From an uncultured Phocaeicola sp. (GTDB taxonomy: Bacteria > Bacteroidota > Bacteroidia > Bacteroidales > Bacteroidaceae): a stretch of 54,310 nucleotides of DNA. A program made the translations under genes and the position numbers. The first letter of the stretch is position 1. Each line of letters starts with the position of its first letter. Below are positions 29,297-48,410 of this stretch, in pieces. Under the pieces are notes generated by a model. It saw only the letters and a program-made list of their open reading frames with translations. It searched no databases and was not told where the DNA came from. Location: the NCBI GenBank assembly GCA_958434805.1, contig CAUBDX010000022.1:1-54310 (forward strand), in the 5' to 3' direction.

Positions 29297-29589
29297 CAAA
29301 TATCCGCCGAGTTTCACTTCTTTTTTTCATTGAAATCTCTATAAAAAGAAAAACCTTCCTCTCGCAGTCATGCTGTTCCAATAAATTTCTGTAAATCTGT
29401 ATAAGGAATATAGCTATTTGAAATTAAATGAGTTAGAAGAATTACCTTGTTTTGGGGTAACGATTTGGCAACCGTCCCAATTGCTGTGGTCTGCGTTATA
29501 TTACTTTTCAAGTAACTCTTTTCCTTTTGCAAATTTAGAAAAAAAATAGAGATATGAGAAACTTATTTTAGCGCATTATTTCAGTTTGC
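29297..29589. other. Junction region between core and island, possible small RNA
   Basis: No gene is seen. On the minus strand a TAAATTTG (29530-29537) precedes a segment that can fold: GTTACTTgaaAAGTAAT near 29511-29527 and a GGGACG/CGTTACCC-type stem at about 29458-29482. This could be a small RNA or a leader fragment. CGATTTGGCA occurs at 29461-29470. The left cassette boundary repeat CGCATTATTTCAG is at 29572-29584. Confidence 0.3.
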
Positions 29590-30450
29590 TTATATAGTAA
29601 AAGACCATGAAAGGCAATTTAAAGCTCCTCCCCCTCTTTTAACTATAGATTGCATCTGCACCTGATAAATTCTACCATCATACTCTGGAAACAGTTTTTT
29701 TATATGTTTCAAAGCTTCTTCATCTGTAGAACGTCCTACACCTGGGACAATTATTACATTTTGAGTATGAATCATATTTATATAAGCCCAACTCATATTA
29801 TGATAATCACTTAGCTCTAAATCGATGACTTTAAAGTATGATTCTAATCGACTTCTCATCTTAGCGGCAATATCATCAGGGTAAACTTTCAGATTCACCA
29901 GTACTTTATTACTGCCAACAGCATGTAAAATTCCATCTGTATGACCACAAACGTCACTTCTATCCCAAGGCAAAAATAAGAACTTATGATTTGGAAATAA
30001 CTTTTCCATTAGAGAAACAAGATATTTTCTATCCATATCAGGGTTCTCAATAAATATTTTCTCCGTCATTATAACAACAGCGGTGTATCCTCTACCTTTT
30101 TTTATGCTTCCAAAGGTAAAGTTACCACCGTCTGCTACAATGGGAGAAACACATATTGAAGAACTTGGTAATATCGTTTTAGCCAGCTTAATGGAGGTTT
30201 CTGTTGATGTTTCATAACCGCGAAGTCCTTCCAGATAGTCAGGATGATATTTAAACTGAACAAAAGAATTACCATCTACTTGTACTGGCATATAATCTCT
30301 ACACCAATAATCGGCTGTTCCTTTCAATACGCCGTAATGCACATCATGCTTTGACAATATTTCAGTCAATTCATTGTACACTTTCGGATAATATCTTTTC
30401 AGATTCTCCGAAAAAAACACATAGTCCATAGTTGATTTTAAGATTTTCAT
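29590..30450 (-). CDS. Agmatine deiminase/peptidyl-arginine deiminase-like protein
   Basis: This 286-residue protein has the pentein fold of agmatine deiminases. Visible motifs: ADYWCRDYMPVQ, VADGGNFTFG, WDRSDVCGHTDGILHA (GHxDG catalytic region) and the C-terminal RGGGALNCLSW that should contain the nucleophilic Cys. In known agmatine deiminases the last motif reads GGGxxHC; here the His is Asn. Length is shorter than typical (about 350). It is the last gene of a compact three-gene unit, overlapping the preceding gene by 4 bases (ATGA). The substrate is unknown and may not be agmatine, given the odd neighbours. Confidence 0.72.
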   Translation of the reverse strand: MKILKSTMDYVFFSENLKRYYPKVYNELTEILSKHDVHYGVLKGTADYWCRDYMPVQVDGNSFVQFKYHPDYLEGLRGYETSTETSIKLAKTILPSSSICVSPIVADGGNFTFGSIKKGRGYTAVVIMTEKIFIENPDMDRKYLVSLMEKLFPNHKFLFLPWDRSDVCGHTDGILHAVGSNKVLVNLKVYPDDIAAKMRSRLESYFKVIDLELSDYHNMSWAYINMIHTQNVIIVPGVGRSTDEEALKHIKKLFPEYDGRIYQVQMQSIVKRGGGALNCLSWSFTI

Positions 30451-31058
30451 TGCTGATCTGCGTCAAGATTAGTAAAACGCCACATACGGTCAGTTGCTTC
30501 CCCTTTTATTTTTTTTACATTTATTCTGGCGGAAGACATAATACGAACTTTATTAAAATCTTCATTATCCATCCAGACAATAGACAACCCTTTCTCGAAA
30601 ATTGAGGCATTACCAAACAAATCTTCCCATAAATATTGTGGCTTGAATTTATCTATTTCTCCTTCTTTCAATTTTTGAGAAGCCTTATTTGTAAAAGTCT
30701 TTTCATCATTATTAACCAAGGATTTATAAGTATACCCTCGAATAAGAAATGATGCACGATATTTTCCTTCACGCTCAAAAGTCATGTCAACACCAGACCT
30801 ATTGGGACAAATCGCTCCTACCGGGAAATAGGGAACATCTCCTACATGGTACATTTGAGGTTCAATTATACTTTTATTCTCTTCATCATGAAAATAGAAC
30901 TCAATATCAATTGGATATATCTCGTATTCTCCATTTACGACATAACGTCCATTAAATACAATTTGGGCAATGTCCTCAAATTGCTTTGTCAGTCCACTAA
31001 CAGTATTAGCTGGAGCAAACCGTTCAAGAGCATTTTGTAATCTTTTTAAGTGATTCAT
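30447..31058 (-). CDS. Unknown protein, weakly DNA-3-methyladenine-glycosylase-like
   Basis: This 203-residue protein has no confident family. The central part has a string of hydrophobic-acidic segments (IYPIDIEFYFHDE, then MYHVGDVPYFPVGAIC and SGVDMTFE). The order resembles the Ile-Glu-Phe-Tyr...His...Tyr-Phe...Gly-Val-Asp-x-Thr-Phe pattern of some bacterial 3-methyladenine glycosylase-like proteins. The similarity is weak and could be chance. It starts immediately at the stop of the upstream UDG-like gene and overlaps the downstream deiminase gene by 4 bases, so the three are translationally linked. Confidence 0.6.
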   Translation of the reverse strand: MNHLKRLQNALERFAPANTVSGLTKQFEDIAQIVFNGRYVVNGEYEIYPIDIEFYFHDEENKSIIEPQMYHVGDVPYFPVGAICPNRSGVDMTFEREGKYRASFLIRGYTYKSLVNNDEKTFTNKASQKLKEGEIDKFKPQYLWEDLFGNASIFEKGLSIVWMDNEDFNKVRIMSSARINVKKIKGEATDRMWRFTNLDADQQ

Positions 31059-31691
31059 TTAATTATTCCTTAAGTGTTCAACAATAATCCTATAATTTTC
31101 AATGCCGATGTTCTTCTCCGTAAGGGATTGATTAGCATAATTTTTACTAACCAGCAGTCTATTGTTATCATATAAATAATTCCATAGACCTTCTCCCATT
31201 AATGTTTTCCATTGGGCTTCGTGCCTCATCACAAGAAACTTTACTTCTTTTGCAGAGGTAGCCAAATAGAGCAACACCATTTTTGTAAATTTCTGAGATG
31301 GAAATAAATTCTTAATAGCTGGAGATACCAGCGAAGTGTAAGCAAAATACTGACATAAGGAAACATGATTAAAAATATTTTCCTTTTCCTGTTCTCCATA
31401 TACGGCTGTTCCTAAAGGAAGTATTTTCTTTCTCCAATAATAGTCACCCAATATTCTTGTTGGCTCGTAATAGTCAAATTTAGTTCCTTCCATTGACAAA
31501 ACCTTTCTTTTGTCCTCCATGATTTCTTCAGCCATCTGAGGTTTGAACATATTTGCAAGATTCTTATTCAGGTGCTCTACATATCCAGGATTCAAAGAAA
31601 GGATTACAAGTTTGGAATTAAGGATATTTCCACTCCATGGCTCAGGAGGAACACATAAAACCAACTGTCTAGTGGGGATTTTCCAACGCAT
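31059..31691 (-). CDS. Uracil-DNA glycosylase superfamily-like protein
   Basis: This 210-residue protein begins RQLVLCVPPEPWSGNILNSKLVILSLNPGYVEHL. The PEPWxGN followed by LSLNPGY is the pattern of UDG-superfamily proteins of unknown role that share the GxNPG active-site loop. The rest has FDYYEPTRILGDYYWRKKI and LVMRHEAQW, the latter in a place like the second active-site motif. Catalysis on uracil is not demonstrated. The gene starts inside the truncated ADP-ribosylglycohydrolase at 31669-31869 and is the first of the three-gene cassette. Confidence 0.6.
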   Translation of the reverse strand: MRWKIPTRQLVLCVPPEPWSGNILNSKLVILSLNPGYVEHLNKNLANMFKPQMAEEIMEDKRKVLSMEGTKFDYYEPTRILGDYYWRKKILPLGTAVYGEQEKENIFNHVSLCQYFAYTSLVSPAIKNLFPSQKFTKMVLLYLATSAKEVKFLVMRHEAQWKTLMGEGLWNYLYDNNRLLVSKNYANQSLTEKNIGIENYRIIVEHLRNN

Positions 31692-31869
31692 ATTTCAGAT
31701 AATAGCTTCCACTCGTGCCGCCATTCATCAGCCAGTCGGCCGTAGCGAACGTCAATATACTATCATCTGTATATTCTTGACGGCTTTGAAACAATGGAAA
31801 CTCTTTTGTTTTGATATTGTCGAATTCATAAATGCTCCCTACAATATCTCCTATAACACTACCGATCAT
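31669..31869 (-). pseudogene. Truncated ADP-ribosylglycohydrolase (N-terminal fragment)
   Basis: Only the first 66 residues remain: MIGSVIGDIVGSIYEFDN, with YTDDSILTFATADWLMNGG, the N-terminal metal-binding start of ADP-ribosylglycohydrolases (DraG/ARH). Full-length proteins have 250 or more residues. The frame stops near the first gene of the cassette, so it appears cut by insertion or deletion; no C-terminal half lies elsewhere in the window. It follows the exonuclease gene closely (14 bases) and was probably part of the WYL-exonuclease operon. Confidence 0.7.
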
Positions 31870-31883
31870 AAGATTGTACTAAT

Positions 31884-32432
31884 TTAAAGCTTTCCGTTAC
31901 AATAATTCATTTCTTCCAATTCGCAGTCTGCATCTATCAATTCTGTCAGAAACAGGCGTGCGCACATCTCCGCGTCATCTCCTGCCCGGTGATGCTGACC
32001 GTATGGAATCTTAAACTGGTCACAAAGATAATCCAGACTATTGCAGCCGAAGTTATAGAGCTTGCGGGCGGCACGGAGGGAACAATAATAAGTGATGTCC
32101 GGCTTCTCCATGCCGTATAGTTCCAATGAATGACGGATGCAACCGATGTCAAAGGCGGCGTTGTGAGCTACAAGTACGGGAATCTCTTTGAGGTATTCGC
32201 ATATTTCAGCCCATACTTCGGGAAATTCCGGTGAATTTATGGTGTCATGCGGACGGATGCCGTGTATCTGCATGTTCCAGTAACTGTACATGTTGCCCTG
32301 CGGACGGACGAGCCACGAACGGGTTTCCACTATCTCTCCGTCGCGCACCACGCAGATGCCGGCTTCGCAGATGGAAGCGCGTTTGCCTGTGGCTGTCTCA
32401 AAGTCGATGGCAATGAAATTTACTCCTTGCAT
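31884..32432 (-). CDS. DnaQ-like 3'-5' exonuclease
   Basis: This 182-residue DEDDh exonuclease has motif I FIAIDFETATG (DxE), motif II VAHNAAFDIGCI and motif III HHRAGDDAEMCA (HxAxxD). It is similar to the epsilon proofreading domain but free-standing; it may degrade ssDNA or RNA. The start overlaps the end of the WYL gene by 13 bases, implying co-transcription. The truncated ADP-ribosylglycohydrolase follows. Confidence 0.87.
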   Translation of the reverse strand: MQGVNFIAIDFETATGKRASICEAGICVVRDGEIVETRSWLVRPQGNMYSYWNMQIHGIRPHDTINSPEFPEVWAEICEYLKEIPVLVAHNAAFDIGCIRHSLELYGMEKPDITYYCSLRAARKLYNFGCNSLDYLCDQFKIPYGQHHRAGDDAEMCARLFLTELIDADCELEEMNYCNGKL

Positions 32433-33382
32433 GGTTTATCCTCCTCCCAAGTATAATAGTCCAAGATGTTTTTTGCAAAATTGCGCATCTCGCTGCGCAC
32501 TGATTCTGGCTCCAGCACTTCCACCTGGTCGCCTTGGGCAAGAACCAACTGATAGAAGTCGAATGTCGGTTTCAGATGGTATACAAAGAGCGTGGACTCG
32601 TCATCGCCCTCTATCTCCCGTTGTGATTCGTGCAGGGGCAAGGTGCGCAGATAGTCAGCAAAACCACCGTAAGCCAAAAGAACAATGCGCTGTATGGGTT
32701 CATCCGATGTGATTACCCCACAGCATCCTTCGAAGTATTGGTTGACATCGAAGTTCTTCTTCATCTTAAACGTCTTGCCCGTATCCTGAATATCTGAAAT
32801 ACGGTCAAGGGCATATACCCGGTAGACATCGGCAGGCTTGATGCCTCTCTCTTTGTTCCGCTCCGAATAGTACGGACTGCGTGCCACCACGTACCAGCGG
32901 CGCTTCACGACTTTCAGACAGTATGGCTCAATCTCAAACGTGCTGGCTTCCGGCTTGCCAAATCCTTGGTGAGTGATGCTTAATACATGATTGCGCCGCA
33001 TGGCTTCGGCAATAGGCGTGAGCCATGTTTGTCCCGACGGAATATTCTCAAAGATAATCCGGTCTTCCAGTTTGTTGTCCGCCTGAATCTGGTTCAAGGT
33101 GGCATAGGAACTTATCAGCCAACTTTGCAGGTTGTTTCCTTCCAACCGTTCCGGTTCATCTATGTAATACCGGTAGCCGTCCTTTCGGTCACAATCAATG
33201 TACACGTCGAAAATATCCTTGATGGCTTTCTGGTGATTATGAAACGTGCGCAAAGGCAATTCCTCACCGTAGCCCAGTCCGCTTTCCTGCCAAAGCTTGC
33301 TGATTTCCTGAAACGTCAGGCGTTTGTATCGACGCAGGGTGTCTATCAGCCAGACATACCGTCCAAAGAGATTTGCTGCCAT
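32420..33382 (-). CDS. WYL-domain transcriptional regulator
   Basis: This 320-residue protein has an N-terminal winged-helix region (about residues 1-70, IDTLRRYKRLTFQEISKLW). The WYL domain (about residues 120-220) follows, with FEIEPYCLKVVKRRWYVVARS, ERGIKPADVYRVYALDRI and GKTFKMKK, then a C-terminal domain. WYL proteins sense ligands, often nucleic-acid signals, and regulate defence and DNA-damage genes. Its gene is divergent from the rtcB unit, and both promoters lie in the 33383-33557 gap, so it may control them and itself (inference). Confidence 0.82.
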   Translation of the reverse strand: MAANLFGRYVWLIDTLRRYKRLTFQEISKLWQESGLGYGEELPLRTFHNHQKAIKDIFDVYIDCDRKDGYRYYIDEPERLEGNNLQSWLISSYATLNQIQADNKLEDRIIFENIPSGQTWLTPIAEAMRRNHVLSITHQGFGKPEASTFEIEPYCLKVVKRRWYVVARSPYYSERNKERGIKPADVYRVYALDRISDIQDTGKTFKMKKNFDVNQYFEGCCGVITSDEPIQRIVLLAYGGFADYLRTLPLHESQREIEGDDESTLFVYHLKPTFDFYQLVLAQGDQVEVLEPESVRSEMRNFAKNILDYYTWEEDKPCKE

Positions 33383-35423: not shown

Positions 35424-36587
35424 ATGCAAATGAATACTCAATTAAACACCTGGGCAGCCAAAACAGCCGAGGCTTATGACAGGATTGCCCGTACGTATGG
35501 GAATAATGCTCCGGCGTTTTATACCCAGTCCGATCTCACAAAAATAAATGATTCTCCGCATGTGTTTGTCATGGGTATAAATCCCGGTTCTGGAGGGACA
35601 TATAAAGAACAATGTGAAAGTGAATACTGGCAGCTTGGTGGAAAGCCAATGGACGGTACACATCTATTAAAAGGCAATCCCTCATGGAGCAAAAGGTTTG
35701 ATTGGTCTTATTGGCAAAGGATATATAGATTGTTCGATTCCAATCCCCATCCGTTAGATGATGGAACCGACTTTATCGTTACAAATGCCACATTCTTCGC
35801 CACGCCGAAAGCTAAAAACTTATTACCACAGCTGTTGGCAGAAACATTGCCCTACACGCTGGAACTTATCGAAATAGCACGCCCTCGGATGATAGTGGTA
35901 TTGAGTGGAAATTCGTTGCTTAAGACCATCAAAGCACATTGTGACGCTACTGGTTGGCGGCTTGAATACTCACAGACTTTTGCCTCCTTGGGAAACATCT
36001 TCACCGGACATCTGGAGGGCATTCCATGTTGCGGCATCCCTCATCCGTCGGCATGTTTATTCCGTGAAGAACGCGAATTGATGAGAAAAGTAGTCACGCA
36101 GATATATTGTTGCGAAAGTATCACGGCCGATGCTTGTCAGGACTTGCTTCACAGCATAAAGCAACACAGAAACGCAAAAGGTTTGTCGAAAGAAGAAATG
36201 GACGCCTTGTTCGATGCTCTCATTGTACGTATGCAAAAACGGCCATATCTTGTATATGAGTCTTGCGAAAAAAAGTTCAGCCGCTACGACTTGTGCAATG
36301 GACTTCAACTGACCATAGCCAACAATTCGACCACTCATTGCATAGCCATACGCCCCAAAGATTACAAAGGGGAAAAAGACATTGACCAAATTCCCATACC
36401 ATATGTGAGAGAATTGCTCGAATGCTTTGATAAAGTGAATTATGTAAATACACCCATTTGGTTAGGGGTGAAAGATTTCAGCATCTTGACGATGGAAAAT
36501 GATATAGAAGGCTTGGCTGACAGTTTGGTGGACGAAGTGGAGAAACTCATTTCTGAAATTTACAAAATTCTGCCACCTTCCCGGTAA
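35424..36587 (+). CDS. Uracil-DNA glycosylase superfamily-like protein with unknown C-terminal domain
   Basis: In this 387-residue protein the first 220 residues resemble the UDG superfamily: FVMGINPGSGG (GxNPG loop), FIVTNATFFATPKAKNL and IPHPSACLFREE (second active-site-like motif). The C-terminal 160 residues (TADACQDLLHSIKQ onward) are not recognised. It could act on damaged or modified bases, or as a nucleic-acid-binding protein; the function is not known. It has its own promoter and lies between rtcB and the HU-like gene. A start 6 bases later (ATGAAT) is also possible. Confidence 0.6.
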   Translation: MQMNTQLNTWAAKTAEAYDRIARTYGNNAPAFYTQSDLTKINDSPHVFVMGINPGSGGTYKEQCESEYWQLGGKPMDGTHLLKGNPSWSKRFDWSYWQRIYRLFDSNPHPLDDGTDFIVTNATFFATPKAKNLLPQLLAETLPYTLELIEIARPRMIVVLSGNSLLKTIKAHCDATGWRLEYSQTFASLGNIFTGHLEGIPCCGIPHPSACLFREERELMRKVVTQIYCCESITADACQDLLHSIKQHRNAKGLSKEEMDALFDALIVRMQKRPYLVYESCEKKFSRYDLCNGLQLTIANNSTTHCIAIRPKDYKGEKDIDQIPIPYVRELLECFDKVNYVNTPIWLGVKDFSILTMENDIEGLADSLVDEVEKLISEIYKILPPSR

Positions 36588-42269: not shown

Positions 42270-42831
42270 TCAAGCTGACAATCTTTGTAAGTTTCTCGTT
42301 TTCAATGAGTAAGAAGAAATGATATGTCTTGAGCAGTGAAAGCTGATTTTCTTGGTAATACCGCATTCCTTTATCATCTTTCCCATACGCTTGCATATTG
42401 ACCAATAGTTGAGATTGGGAAATACAAGATTGTTTTCCTGAAAAGCCTTGTAACGCTCGATTATCTGCAAGGGAATATCCAGCAGCTTCACCTGAAACGG
42501 TACACCCGTCTTGTGTCGTTTGGAAATAATCCATTTCTCACCGTTCACTTCCACAATTTGGTCGTTGCTTAATTCCTTTATATCCACGAATGAGAGGGCG
42601 GTAAAACTGGCGAAAACAAAAAAATGCGCCCGCATCACCACACCTTTCAGCCACATGCAGTTTTCCCATATCGAACCGTTGTGCAGTCCGGCTTCGTTGG
42701 AAAGGAACACGGCGAACTCCTTGATGAAGTCGGGTGTAAGTTCAGGCATGGAGATGTCGTTCCGCTTGTAATCCGTTCTTTTCCTTACTGCCGTTCACGT
42801 AGAACAGCACCTTGAATGTGCTTCTTGCCAT
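42270..42831 (-). pseudogene. Decayed tyrosine recombinase (integrase)
   Basis: The N-terminal start MARSTFKVLFYVNGSKEKNG (from 42831) and the central part MPELTPDFIKEFAVFLSNE to KKISFHCSRH (from 42749) belong to a Bacteroidetes site-specific integrase, but they are in different frames with missing sequence between them. The part with the first catalytic region (HCSRH) runs into nonsense and the tyrosine nucleophile is absent. It marks the probable right edge of an integrated element. Confidence 0.75.
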
Positions 42832-42858: not shown

Positions 42859-43098
42859 TAAATCAACGAGTTACCTATTGATAAGCAAAGCTGCGCAGAA
42901 CGCCGCAAAATGAAATAGGGACTGTTAAATCTGCACTTTCATCGGGTAATGATTAGGAAACCGTTCTTTTGCTTTAATCTGCTTTAAGACGGTTTTCAAC
43001 TGTCTGCCCAACTTCTGCGTTTTTCCTCTAACTCCCTAATTATCAAATCCTGTTGCGTTAATCTGCTGCAATTCGGCGGATATTCCAGAGATTTTTAG
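42859..43098. other. Spacer between integrase relic and acyl-CoA synthetase
   Basis: No gene is seen in these 240 bases. Short open frames on the minus strand are rich in Lys and Gln and shift frame at an A run, so they look like remains of a coding region. The right side contains the acyl-CoA synthetase promoter. Confidence 0.35.
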
Positions 43099-43131
43099 TA
43101 CATTTGCACAAATGCATTTCAATTTGTGCAA
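43099..43131 (+). promoter_or_regulatory. Acyl-CoA synthetase promoter with operator-like palindrome
   Basis: TACATTTG (43099-43106) is a -7 element. Overlapping its end is a 10-bp perfect inverted repeat TTGCACAAAT (43104-43113) and ATTTGTGCAA (43122-43131), covering the expected transcription start. This is a good repressor-site position. Confidence 0.55.
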
Positions 43132-46774: not shown

Positions 46775-46830
46775 CTTTCCTTCACCCACAAAAACAGAAT
46801 AAATCAAGCAAAAATGCACAAGAAGATTGT

Positions 46831-46838
46831 TACCTTTG
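46831..46838 (+). promoter_or_regulatory. -7 element of hsd operon
   Basis: TACCTTTG matches TAnnTTTG 54 bases before the hsdM start. There is no -33 TTTG at normal distance. Confidence 0.45.
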
Positions 46839-46892
46839 CCATATCAACATTCAGAACCGGGGCATACAGTCCCAAACAAGAAACAGAAACCA

Positions 46893-48410
46893 ATGATTAC
46901 AGGCGAAATTAAAAATCAGATAGACCAGATTTGGGATACCTTCTTCGTGGCAGGCATCACCAACCCCATTACCGTACTTGAGCAGATGACGTATATCTTC
47001 TTCATGAAAATGCTCGACGACAAGCAGCTGCAGGAAGAACAAAATGCCGAGCTCTGGGGAGGCACACTCTTAAACCCCACCTTCCTGAAAGGAGAACGAT
47101 GGGTGAACCCCGATGCAGTGAGCGAAGAAGAAAAGCAGGGAGTGCCTTATGAGAACCTGCGCTGGCATGTATTCAAAAACCTGGGAGCCGACAACATGTT
47201 CAAGCTGGTACGGCAGAGTGTATTCGAGTTTATCAAACACATCGGAACCGGAGAAGAAAGTGCCTACAGCCGCTACATGAAATCTGCCATTTTCCTCATC
47301 CCAAACGCACGCACCTTGGTGAAAGTGGTAGAAGGAGTCAATGCCCTCGACATGAACAACCGCGATGCCATGGGCGATGTATATGAGTATATCTTGGGCA
47401 AGATGGCTGCCTCGGGCACCAACGGACAGTTTCGTACGCCCCGTCATATCATCCGCATGATTGTAGAGATGATGGAACCCAAGGCTCACGATTATATCTG
47501 CGACCCTGCCATGGGGTCGGCAGGCTTTCTGGTGGAAGCCGTGAAGTATATCAAAGAACAGGGAGAGATGGCGCAATATGCAGCGAAAGAAATTCAGCAT
47601 ATCAAAACCAGCATGATCAACGGGTATGATACCGACCAGACCATGCTGCGCATCGGGGCGATGAACTTGCTGCTGCATGACATCACCGCTCCCGAACTGG
47701 CTTGGCGTGACTCGCTCTCTGAGCAGAACGACGACGAACGGTGTTACAGCCTCATCATGGCTAATCCGCCCTTTGCCGGAAGCTTGGACAAGGGAAATGT
47801 GAACAAGAAAATCCTGGCGTATGCCAACACCAGCAAGACCGAGCTGCTCTTCCTTGCCCAATTTGTACGCTCACTGGAAATCGGGGGTCGTTGCGCCAGC
47901 ATTGTACCCGACGGCGTACTCTTCGGCTCCAGCAAAGCCCACTTGGCTATCCGCAAGGAAATTGTAGACCATCAGCAGCTGCGTGCGGTGATTTCCATGC
48001 CGAGCGGTGTGTTCAAGCCCTATGCCGGTGTGTCGACTGCTGTATTGGTATTTACCAAGACCAACAGTGGCGGCACAGACAAGGTATGGTTTTACGATAT
48101 GAAAGCCGACGGCTATTCATTGGATGACAAGCGTTCGCCCATCAGCGACAATGATATTCCCGATGTGGTGGCTCGCTTCCGTCACCTGGAGGCTGAATCC
48201 GGACGGAGCCGCAAGGAGCAGAGCTTCCTTGTTCCGGTAGAGGAAATCCGGAAGAATGACTACGACCTTTCCATCAATAAATACAAGGAGGTGGAACGTG
48301 AAAAGGTGGAATATGAACCGGTAACTGATATTCTGACCCGATTGGAGCAAACGGAAAGCCAATACCTGAAGGGGTATAGCGAACTATATAAGATGCTGGA
48401 GGAGAGATGA
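46893..48410 (+). CDS. hsdM: Type I restriction-modification system, methyltransferase subunit
   Basis: This 505-residue N6-adenine methyltransferase subunit has an N-terminal helical domain (TGEIKNQIDQIWDTFFVAG) and SAM motif I DPAMGSAGFLVEA, with catalytic motif IV ANPPFAGSLDKG. A C-terminal helical part contacts HsdS. It modifies host DNA at the site set by HsdS. The start at 46893 is chosen as MITGEIKNQID; the upstream in-frame part is not family-like. It is the first gene of the hsd operon, and its TGA overlaps a 30-codon ORF start. Confidence 0.95.
   Translation: MITGEIKNQIDQIWDTFFVAGITNPITVLEQMTYIFFMKMLDDKQLQEEQNAELWGGTLLNPTFLKGERWVNPDAVSEEEKQGVPYENLRWHVFKNLGADNMFKLVRQSVFEFIKHIGTGEESAYSRYMKSAIFLIPNARTLVKVVEGVNALDMNNRDAMGDVYEYILGKMAASGTNGQFRTPRHIIRMIVEMMEPKAHDYICDPAMGSAGFLVEAVKYIKEQGEMAQYAAKEIQHIKTSMINGYDTDQTMLRIGAMNLLLHDITAPELAWRDSLSEQNDDERCYSLIMANPPFAGSLDKGNVNKKILAYANTSKTELLFLAQFVRSLEIGGRCASIVPDGVLFGSSKAHLAIRKEIVDHQQLRAVISMPSGVFKPYAGVSTAVLVFTKTNSGGTDKVWFYDMKADGYSLDDKRSPISDNDIPDVVARFRHLEAESGRSRKEQSFLVPVEEIRKNDYDLSINKYKEVEREKVEYEPVTDILTRLEQTESQYLKGYSELYKMLEER

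Follow-up and report, generated by a model that had tools for sequence, protein, structure and literature searches.

Why does a gene for an enzyme of the agmatine-deiminase fold lie end to end with genes for two DNA-glycosylase-like proteins in an uncultured Phocaeicola sp.? The locus is a three-gene cassette on contig CAUBDX010000022.1 (assembly GCA_958434805.1), of which we analysed positions 1 to 54,310; this whole stretch is called the window here. A sequence-only reading of the window had singled out the cassette as a possible defence or nucleotide-modification module. We found that its second and third genes form a pair, which recurs widely and beyond chance, and that the constant unit, as judged from gene content and similarity, is the deiminase together with a predicted DNA-attacking partner. 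Our preferred reading, to which we give a probability of about 45%, is that the cassette represents a rearranged copy of a mobile module of deiminase and DNA-attacking partner that would act on invading DNA in two steps. The three open reading frames (ORFs; lengths in amino acids, aa) are:

31059..31691, minus strand: gene 1, C-terminal UDG-superfamily-like (Brig1-related) domain, 5'-truncated, 210-aa ORF
30447..31058, minus strand: gene 2, AAG-type (3-methyladenine) DNA-glycosylase-like protein, 203 aa (Glu53, Tyr55 and Arg107 align with AAG)
29590..30450, minus strand: gene 3, agmatine-deiminase-fold (PAD_porph) enzyme, 286 aa (PF04371; solved-structure profile matches; residue conservation)

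The window's ORF list holds all three with exactly the ends that had been proposed (31691-31059, 31058-30447 and 30450-29590); gene 2 starts directly after the stop of gene 1 and overlaps gene 3 by 4 bases. The cassette is, as had been claimed, more A/T rich than its neighbours: its GC content is 34.6%, compared with 44.9% for the window and a minimum of 39.9% among windows of the same length outside it (taken every 100 bases, none touching the cassette).

The pairing was counted from the deiminase side in 47 loci, which derive from genome searches plus plasmid and phage records and were scored with one script. An adjacent partner (same strand, up to 2.1 kb) was of AAG type in 27 loci, of deoxyinosine-glycosylase type in 4 and of HNH type in 6, and was missing in 10, a count that is not fully independent because some of these loci also served to build the partner profiles g2, HDG and HNHp. 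At least one ORF lies between the partners in 5 of the 27 AAG cases (L036, L037, L038, L041 and L089), and the weakest partner counted had an E-value of about 1e-8. At an E-value of 1e-4 the controls showed no partner, neither the 6 ordinary agmatine-deiminase-like loci of about 3.8 kb nor the 20 random windows of about 14 kb. The 47 loci exclude the hit in G007 (L008, where gene 2 lies beside the deiminase), 6 weak Bacteroidota hits that we regard as ordinary agmatine deiminases, 3 hits in Bacteroides phages with 24% identity, L182 (which has the pair and came up through its WYL gene) and the loci found through gene 2, except L001, L002 and L005. Near-duplicates are L011 and L013 (99.3% identical) and L001 and L002 (99.6%); L008 and L013, whose bins bear the names of other phyla, are possibly contamination. 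Thirteen viral (IMG/VR) loci were counted apart, and three of these (L212, L213 and L217) have an AAG-type partner. In another, L218:1133-6437, the deiminase lies between ORFs resembling, by eye, type I restriction HsdR and HsdM, and the remaining 9 show neither a recognised partner nor such restriction ORFs.

From the gene-2 side, a search of genome contigs gave 15 loci, 14 of them with a deiminase adjoining or one ORF away, and 295 Bacteroidales genomes, searched by profile, contain 16 places in 14 genomes, where the same holds for 12; a viral scan with the gene-2 profile found nothing. The deiminase occurs in 34 of the 295 Bacteroidales genomes (at E 1e-25), in 2 of 249 Bacillota genomes (one of which, G007, holds the short contig L008 and is a possible contamination), in 3 of 200 genomes from the family of G608 and in 11 of 198 Bacteroidota genomes, where 6 of the 11 resemble ordinary agmatine deiminases; the labels Bacteroidales, Bacteroidota and Bacillota are inferred from the search centres L001 and L008. 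In 25 of 33 loci with both genes the ORFs overlap or lie at most 20 bases apart, 9 of them with an overlap of exactly 4 bases, figures that are approximate because each ORF start was set at the first possible start codon; the deiminase comes first in 9 of the 33. The co-occurrence which the sequence-only reading had proposed to look for thus holds broadly for the pair and narrowly for the trio, which in the loci examined was seen in two lineages only, that of the window, L001 and L002, and, with another gene order, L009. The trio as an exclusive unit was rejected: gene-1 relatives occur in 4 of the 295 Bacteroidales genomes, and of these four only the two that hold L001 and L002 have one next to the pair.

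What, then, are the two proteins of the pair? The deiminase fold of gene 3, proposed from its sequence at the outset, is certain by profile comparison: the protein matches PF04371 with 66.7 bits (cut-off 25; E 2.8e-18) from profile position 72 of 321 onward, and its profile also matches solved agmatine deiminases, while a sequence search of PDB chains with gene 3 alone found no true relative. The Cys, His and Asp residues of such enzymes are catalytic, and in the guanidino-modifying superfamily conserved Asp residues grip the guanidinium group. Gene 3 has them as Asp52, Asp107, His170, Asp172 and Cys279; among 44 deiminases, Cys279, His170, Asp107 and Asp172 are each kept in 43 and Asp52 in 42. 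One locus, L089:7912-8928 (minus strand), encodes a degenerate deiminase without the active-site Cys, His and Asp beside an intact copy, perhaps a regulatory pseudo-enzyme.

The AAG-like fold of gene 2 is well supported by alignment, and we count the protein as having the AAG (PF02245) fold. Compared with 20 AAGs by hhalign, the gene-2 family scored 37.0 (probability 61; 40.8 in an earlier run with 6 AAGs only), and its catalytic residues paired with the EAY and LIRA motifs of AAG, in line with the initial suggestion of a 3-methyladenine-glycosylase-like protein. AAG-type enzymes use the Glu and Tyr of an E-x-Y motif and an Arg in catalysis; Glu53 and Tyr55 are kept in all 32 gene-2 proteins and Arg107 in 30 of 32. 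Single-sequence and database methods returned less: a Pfam scan gave no family at E 1, so that the PF02245 cut-off was not reached, a PF02245 search of 12 module-carrying genomes gave no hit, and PDB chain searches with gene 2 alone and with its profile found no true relative. Foldseek, which had been proposed as a check, gave no match at E <= 0.001 for gene 1 or gene 2, and realignment with VIA-align was informative for gene 2. Since catalytic residues are kept in nearly all copies, gene 2 and the deiminase are probably both working enzymes.

The partners that stand beside the deiminase differ from locus to locus. L198 and L205 (family of G608, presumed Bacillota) have a Sel1-like gene, a reverse transcriptase (by eye) and the deiminase in common; beside this same deiminase, L198 carries an AAG (TIGR00567 3-methyladenine glycosylase, 1.7e-6, below cut-off, along with four sister models) and L205 a deoxyinosine-glycosylase-type protein (4.1e-12, by a custom profile of two sequences). 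TIGR04274, the DNA-deoxyinosine glycosylase model, is matched above cut-off by the partner in L201 (6.4e-27) and by a domain fused to gene 2 in L011 (2.5e-29), and below cut-off in L099 (4e-9) and L100 (3.5e-5); four plasmid and phage records that were scanned gave no match to it. The HNH partners of L086, L091, L101 and L206 are mutually related (blastp E 2e-47 to 1e-8), two Flammeovirga plasmids encode the same HNH family beside the deiminase (4e-20 and 3.6e-18), and the L101 partner resembles the restriction enzyme PacI (1.1e-7). In L210 (MT836602.1) both halves are joined in one protein of 514 aa, AAG-like at residues 11-219 and deiminase at 225-513. That the partners change while the deiminase stays, and that an AAG-deiminase fusion exists, suggests that the deiminase works together with base excision or cutting of DNA.

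The reverse transcriptase genes L198:7800-8867 and L205:4174-5238, beside the glycosylase-deiminase pair, look retron-like by eye. More distant deiminase relatives (23-30% identity) are found on the viral contigs L220-L224 in phage-like gene clusters, where they might be base-modification or counter-defence genes of phages; those of L221, L222 and L224 adjoin a phosphatidylserine-decarboxylase-like ORF (by eye), and those of L220, L223 and L224 are accompanied by a similar ORF of 318-334 aa. In Bacteroides phage SJC03 (L211:2967-4756) a relative with 24% identity follows an HNH-like ORF (by eye), and there are similar hits in DAC16 and DAC23.

Gene 1 is less constant. Comparison with its relatives indicates that it is itself truncated, having kept only the 3' part of what was a gene of 440 aa: a near-identical full-length homologue of 440 aa lies in a Barnesiella metagenome-assembled genome (L002:6678-8000), and other longer homologues have 281, 321 and 277 aa, the 281-aa protein (P0242) also carrying residues upstream of 'RQLV'. 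The 210-aa form (P0241) stands for a 90% cluster with 52 members from 22 contigs, which speaks only weakly against an error of assembly. The truncated gene retains the domain with the UDG-like loop that had been noticed in it. A gene-1 relative matches the Brig1-family profile (NF047634) at 3.6e-9, below the family cut-off, and the structure model of gene 1 more weakly backs the loop; a PDB chain search with the gene-1 profile found no true relative. Gene 1 and L009:6433-7110 share a distant profile similarity to Brig1, with 16.6 and 36.5 bits for the gene-1 family against an equivalog cut-off of 230, and gene 1 thus appears distantly related to this anti-phage glycosylase. As gene 1 keeps only the UDG-like domain here, the window copy of the module may depend on genes 2 and 3 alone. 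N-termini vary across the gene-1 family, and the metagenomic protein P0243 fuses the UDG-like domain to SMI1/KNR4-type (SUKH) domains (PF09346/PF14568). A second UDG-superfamily-like protein of 387 aa (PF03167 0.0018, below cut-off) is encoded about 4 kb from the cassette, at 35424-36587 on the plus strand.

How did the cassette come to its present form? Four further features bear on this:

31669..31869, minus strand: ADP-ribosylglycohydrolase fragment, first 66 aa (PF03747, E 0.0032, below cut-off)
29386..31677, no strand: mobile stretch common to two other genomes (blastn to L001/L002, end sequences compared)
31884..32432, minus strand: DnaQ-like 3'-5' exonuclease, conserved edge of a variable site (PF00929, 1.6e-25)
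32420..33382, minus strand: WYL/WCX-domain regulator paired with the exonuclease (PF13280, PF25583)

The mobile stretch, a sign of recent mobility, is 99.8% identical to L001 and 99.6% to L002 with different flanks (blastn), and it ends near 29386. The common DNA starts at 31677, inside the joint with the glycohydrolase fragment, which covers positions 4-68 of the 287 of the PF03747 profile, and the initial codons of the 210-aa ORF are glycohydrolase DNA. What reads as a compact three-gene cassette is a larger mobile unit in rearranged form, since gene 1 is truncated and joined behind this fragment. It had been placed exactly at a truncated gene, and it does abut one; the truncation of gene 1 itself had been missed.

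The cassette stands behind the WYL regulator and the DnaQ-like exonuclease, and DNA identity with L177, the closest relative, breaks off at 31883, where the exonuclease ends. Orthologues of the WYL-exonuclease pair carry varying downstream genes: in L177, L181, L183 and L184 the site holds ORFs resembling DUF262/GmrSD (by eye), in L182 the deiminase-gene 2 pair lies about 1.2 kb away, and in L050 a gene-1 relative stands beside what appears by eye to be the same WYL-exonuclease pair. In L002 a Mob_Pre-family relaxase (PF01076, 3.5e-25) lies directly upstream of the module, and in L212 a similar relaxase (by eye) adjoins another version of it. As relatives carry other genes at this site and relaxases adjoin the module in L002 and L212, the cassette is best described as mobile cargo at a variable site. 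Its relatives form a modular family that presumably spans two phyla and is found beside relaxase genes, on plasmids and on viral contigs.

What might such a module do? It is probably a mobile, DNA-targeting, anti-phage module, as its composition and its likeness to known systems suggest. By analogy, we infer that the deiminase prepares a base for its partner. In a first step, it could hydrolyse an amino, amidino or guanidino group of a base that belongs either to the nucleotide pool or, as a decorated base, to phage DNA. In a second step, the partner would recognise the processed base and then excise it (AAG-type, deoxyinosine-glycosylase-type and Brig1-like partners) or cut the DNA (HNH type), which would leave abasic or broken DNA that cannot be replicated. 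AAG and deoxyinosine glycosylases have unrelated folds and hypoxanthine as a substrate in common; because both remove it, a hypoxanthine-like base may be what the deiminase prepares. The conserved Asp residues that bind guanidinium speak instead for a substrate with an amidine or a guanidine. In a 'deaminate, then excise' immunity of this kind, an agmatine-deiminase-fold enzyme would make the hypoxanthine-like base from adenine or from an N6-modified or amidine-bearing base, and glycosylases would remove it. We consider this specific form unlikely; the replacement of AAG-type by deoxyinosine-type partners beside the same deiminase (L198 and L205) speaks in its favour. To our knowledge, it would be the first case of an agmatine-deiminase-fold enzyme acting on nucleic acid. 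If the deiminase does act on bases, the chemistry of the guanidino-modifying superfamily reaches nucleic acids and provides a new base-processing enzyme. The animal counterpart of such an immunity would be the APOBEC/AID-plus-UNG pairing (PMC10273834).

Several findings weigh against the two-step reading, besides the partial dependence of the partner count on its own profiles. No partner of the three classes was recognised in 10 of the 47 loci and in 10 of the 13 viral loci (flanks up to 4 kb). The deiminases of L036, L037 and L041 start with a signal-like segment and that of L098 with a membrane-like one (by eye), an odd feature that fits poorly with an enzyme acting on DNA, and the kept guanidinium-gripping Asp residues could point to a substrate that resembles arginine or agmatine and not to a base. 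Direct profile comparison of the gene-2 family with the single AAG of L198 gave a probability of 2.7% and no match, and 5 of 6 distant gene-2 proteins lack an NCBIfam match. PADLOC gave no clear excess of defence genes, with totals of 138 families in 148 neighbour genes and 151 in 130 control genes, of which the 25 commonest are itemised. The neighbours scanned were 148 of 166 genes, the 18 omitted being every gene of the window, L002, L006 and L083 plus a single small ORF from each of L100, L102, L104 and L105; the controls were 130 of 138, omitting L109 and two genes of L118. As the totals are not higher than those of the controls, which also match Cas1, Cas2 and others, we claim no defence enrichment, and the defence role first proposed for the cassette is kept here as an interpretation of its composition.

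The same findings could be explained if the glycosylase or HNH partner sensed foreign or modified DNA and the deiminase were a separate effector, which would deplete arginine or agmatine or deiminate proteins and thereby stop the infected cell. The guanidinium-type active-site residues, the membrane- or signal-like N-termini and the loci with no recognised DNA partner are all in keeping with this, as are the Sel1 repeats, which occur as fusions with the deiminase in L083 and L087 and in nearby genes in L008, L011 and L037 and, by eye, in others, and which fit a protein or envelope effector. We nevertheless regard such a division of labour as rather unlikely: the swapped partners have only base excision or DNA cutting in common, the deiminase is fused to an AAG-like domain, and the partners keep glycosylase-type catalytic residues that a pure sensor would not need.

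Repair or self-resistance, in which the module would clear the cell's own DNA of a base that was chemically damaged or modified by a toxin (for example one from competing gut bacteria), appears quite unlikely. The names of the AAG, deoxyinosine glycosylase and UDG families are those of repair enzymes, the SMI1/KNR4-type domains of the gene-1 relative P0243 would suit this explanation, and an ADP-ribosylglycohydrolase is close by, as a fragment in the window and as a gene in L095; the distribution is, however, patchy and mobile, restriction-type genes lie nearby in some loci, and HNH nucleases fit badly as partners. That gene 3 is an ordinary polyamine gene, an agmatine deiminase beside unrelated cargo, is very improbable, as its PF04371 membership and the public product names ('agmatine deiminase family protein' or 'hypothetical protein', where genes are named) stand against 30.4 bits on the agmatine deiminase (AguA) equivalog TIGR03380, far from its cut-off of 381.8, and against a non-random partner set that includes the AAG-deiminase fusion.

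Which known systems does the two-step module resemble? With AguA and the peptidylarginine deiminases of PF04371 it shares the fold and the catalytic Cys/His/Asp pattern, whereas its neighbours are DNA enzymes and gene 3 scores far below the AguA cut-off. The adenosine deaminases of RADAR and Kongming have a fold different from the agmatine-deiminase fold. RADAR, Kongming and PabI are compared here by description only. RADAR (PMC9994260) and Kongming (PMC12948488) likewise involve deaminated purine nucleotides (inosine and deoxyinosine triphosphate, ITP and dITP) in phage defence, but no glycosylase is named in these descriptions. PabI-type restriction glycosylases also destroy DNA by base excision; they attack improperly methylated sites within restriction-modification systems (PMC10273834). 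Among the seven window ORFs scanned no DNA methyltransferase was found, which gives no sign of a restriction-modification system; in L200 a methyltransferase gene overlaps the pair.

The closest parallel in composition may be Brig3-BapA, in which BapA strips glucose from 5-hydroxymethylcytosine (5hmC) so that Brig3 can excise it; an ADP-ribosyl glycohydrolase gene near Brig3 was excluded from the phenotype (PMC13160076). As there, a short operon joins a base glycosylase to a hydrolase that would prepare a modified base, an ADP-ribosyl glycohydrolase gene adjoins (as the fragment at the cassette and as a gene beside the pair in L095; PF03747 1.6e-75), and a UDG-superfamily glycosylase takes part, which gene 1 also appears to be. 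What is observed is a glycosylase-type protein next to a hydrolase or fused with it, and base preparation is the conjectural part. Unlike in Brig3-BapA, the constant part here is a hydrolase of the agmatine-deiminase fold, the glycosylases are mostly of AAG or deoxyinosine-glycosylase type, and an HNH nuclease can substitute for them. Brig1 also lies beside an ADP-ribosyl glycohydrolase and gave immunity alone (PMC11078745), whereas the core here is the pairing with a deiminase and the gene-1 family stays far below the NF047634 cut-off. In the parts of the literature available, glycosylase-based defence rests on few enzymes, namely Brig1, Brig3 and the PabI family. Among the papers listed by full-text searches, which mostly do not cover subscription papers, no title or abstract start ties a PF04371-family deiminase to DNA glycosylases or defence; no deiminase is named in the first 300,000 characters of the polymorphic-toxin paper PMC3482391 (term search), and a term search of PMC13092281 finds 'glycosylase' only in a legend's abbreviation list, for UDG.

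The only PADLOC-DB match among the three cassette proteins is Mem_03 at 0.0047 for gene 2, which places none of them in a known defence family. Elsewhere, neighbours of the module include a Cas9-like gene in L039 (RuvC/HNH domains), a TIR protein in L093, GmrSD_N in L097 and, among the PADLOC families listed, type IIG and type I restriction families. In the window, an ORF at 42270-42749 (minus strand) ends in a tyrosine-recombinase-like motif (by eye) and is an apparent remnant, near which positions 42988-43114 match L002:4860-4985 at 81%; 15 kb from the cassette, an ORF at 46827-48410 (plus strand) resembles, by eye, HsdM of type I restriction-modification.

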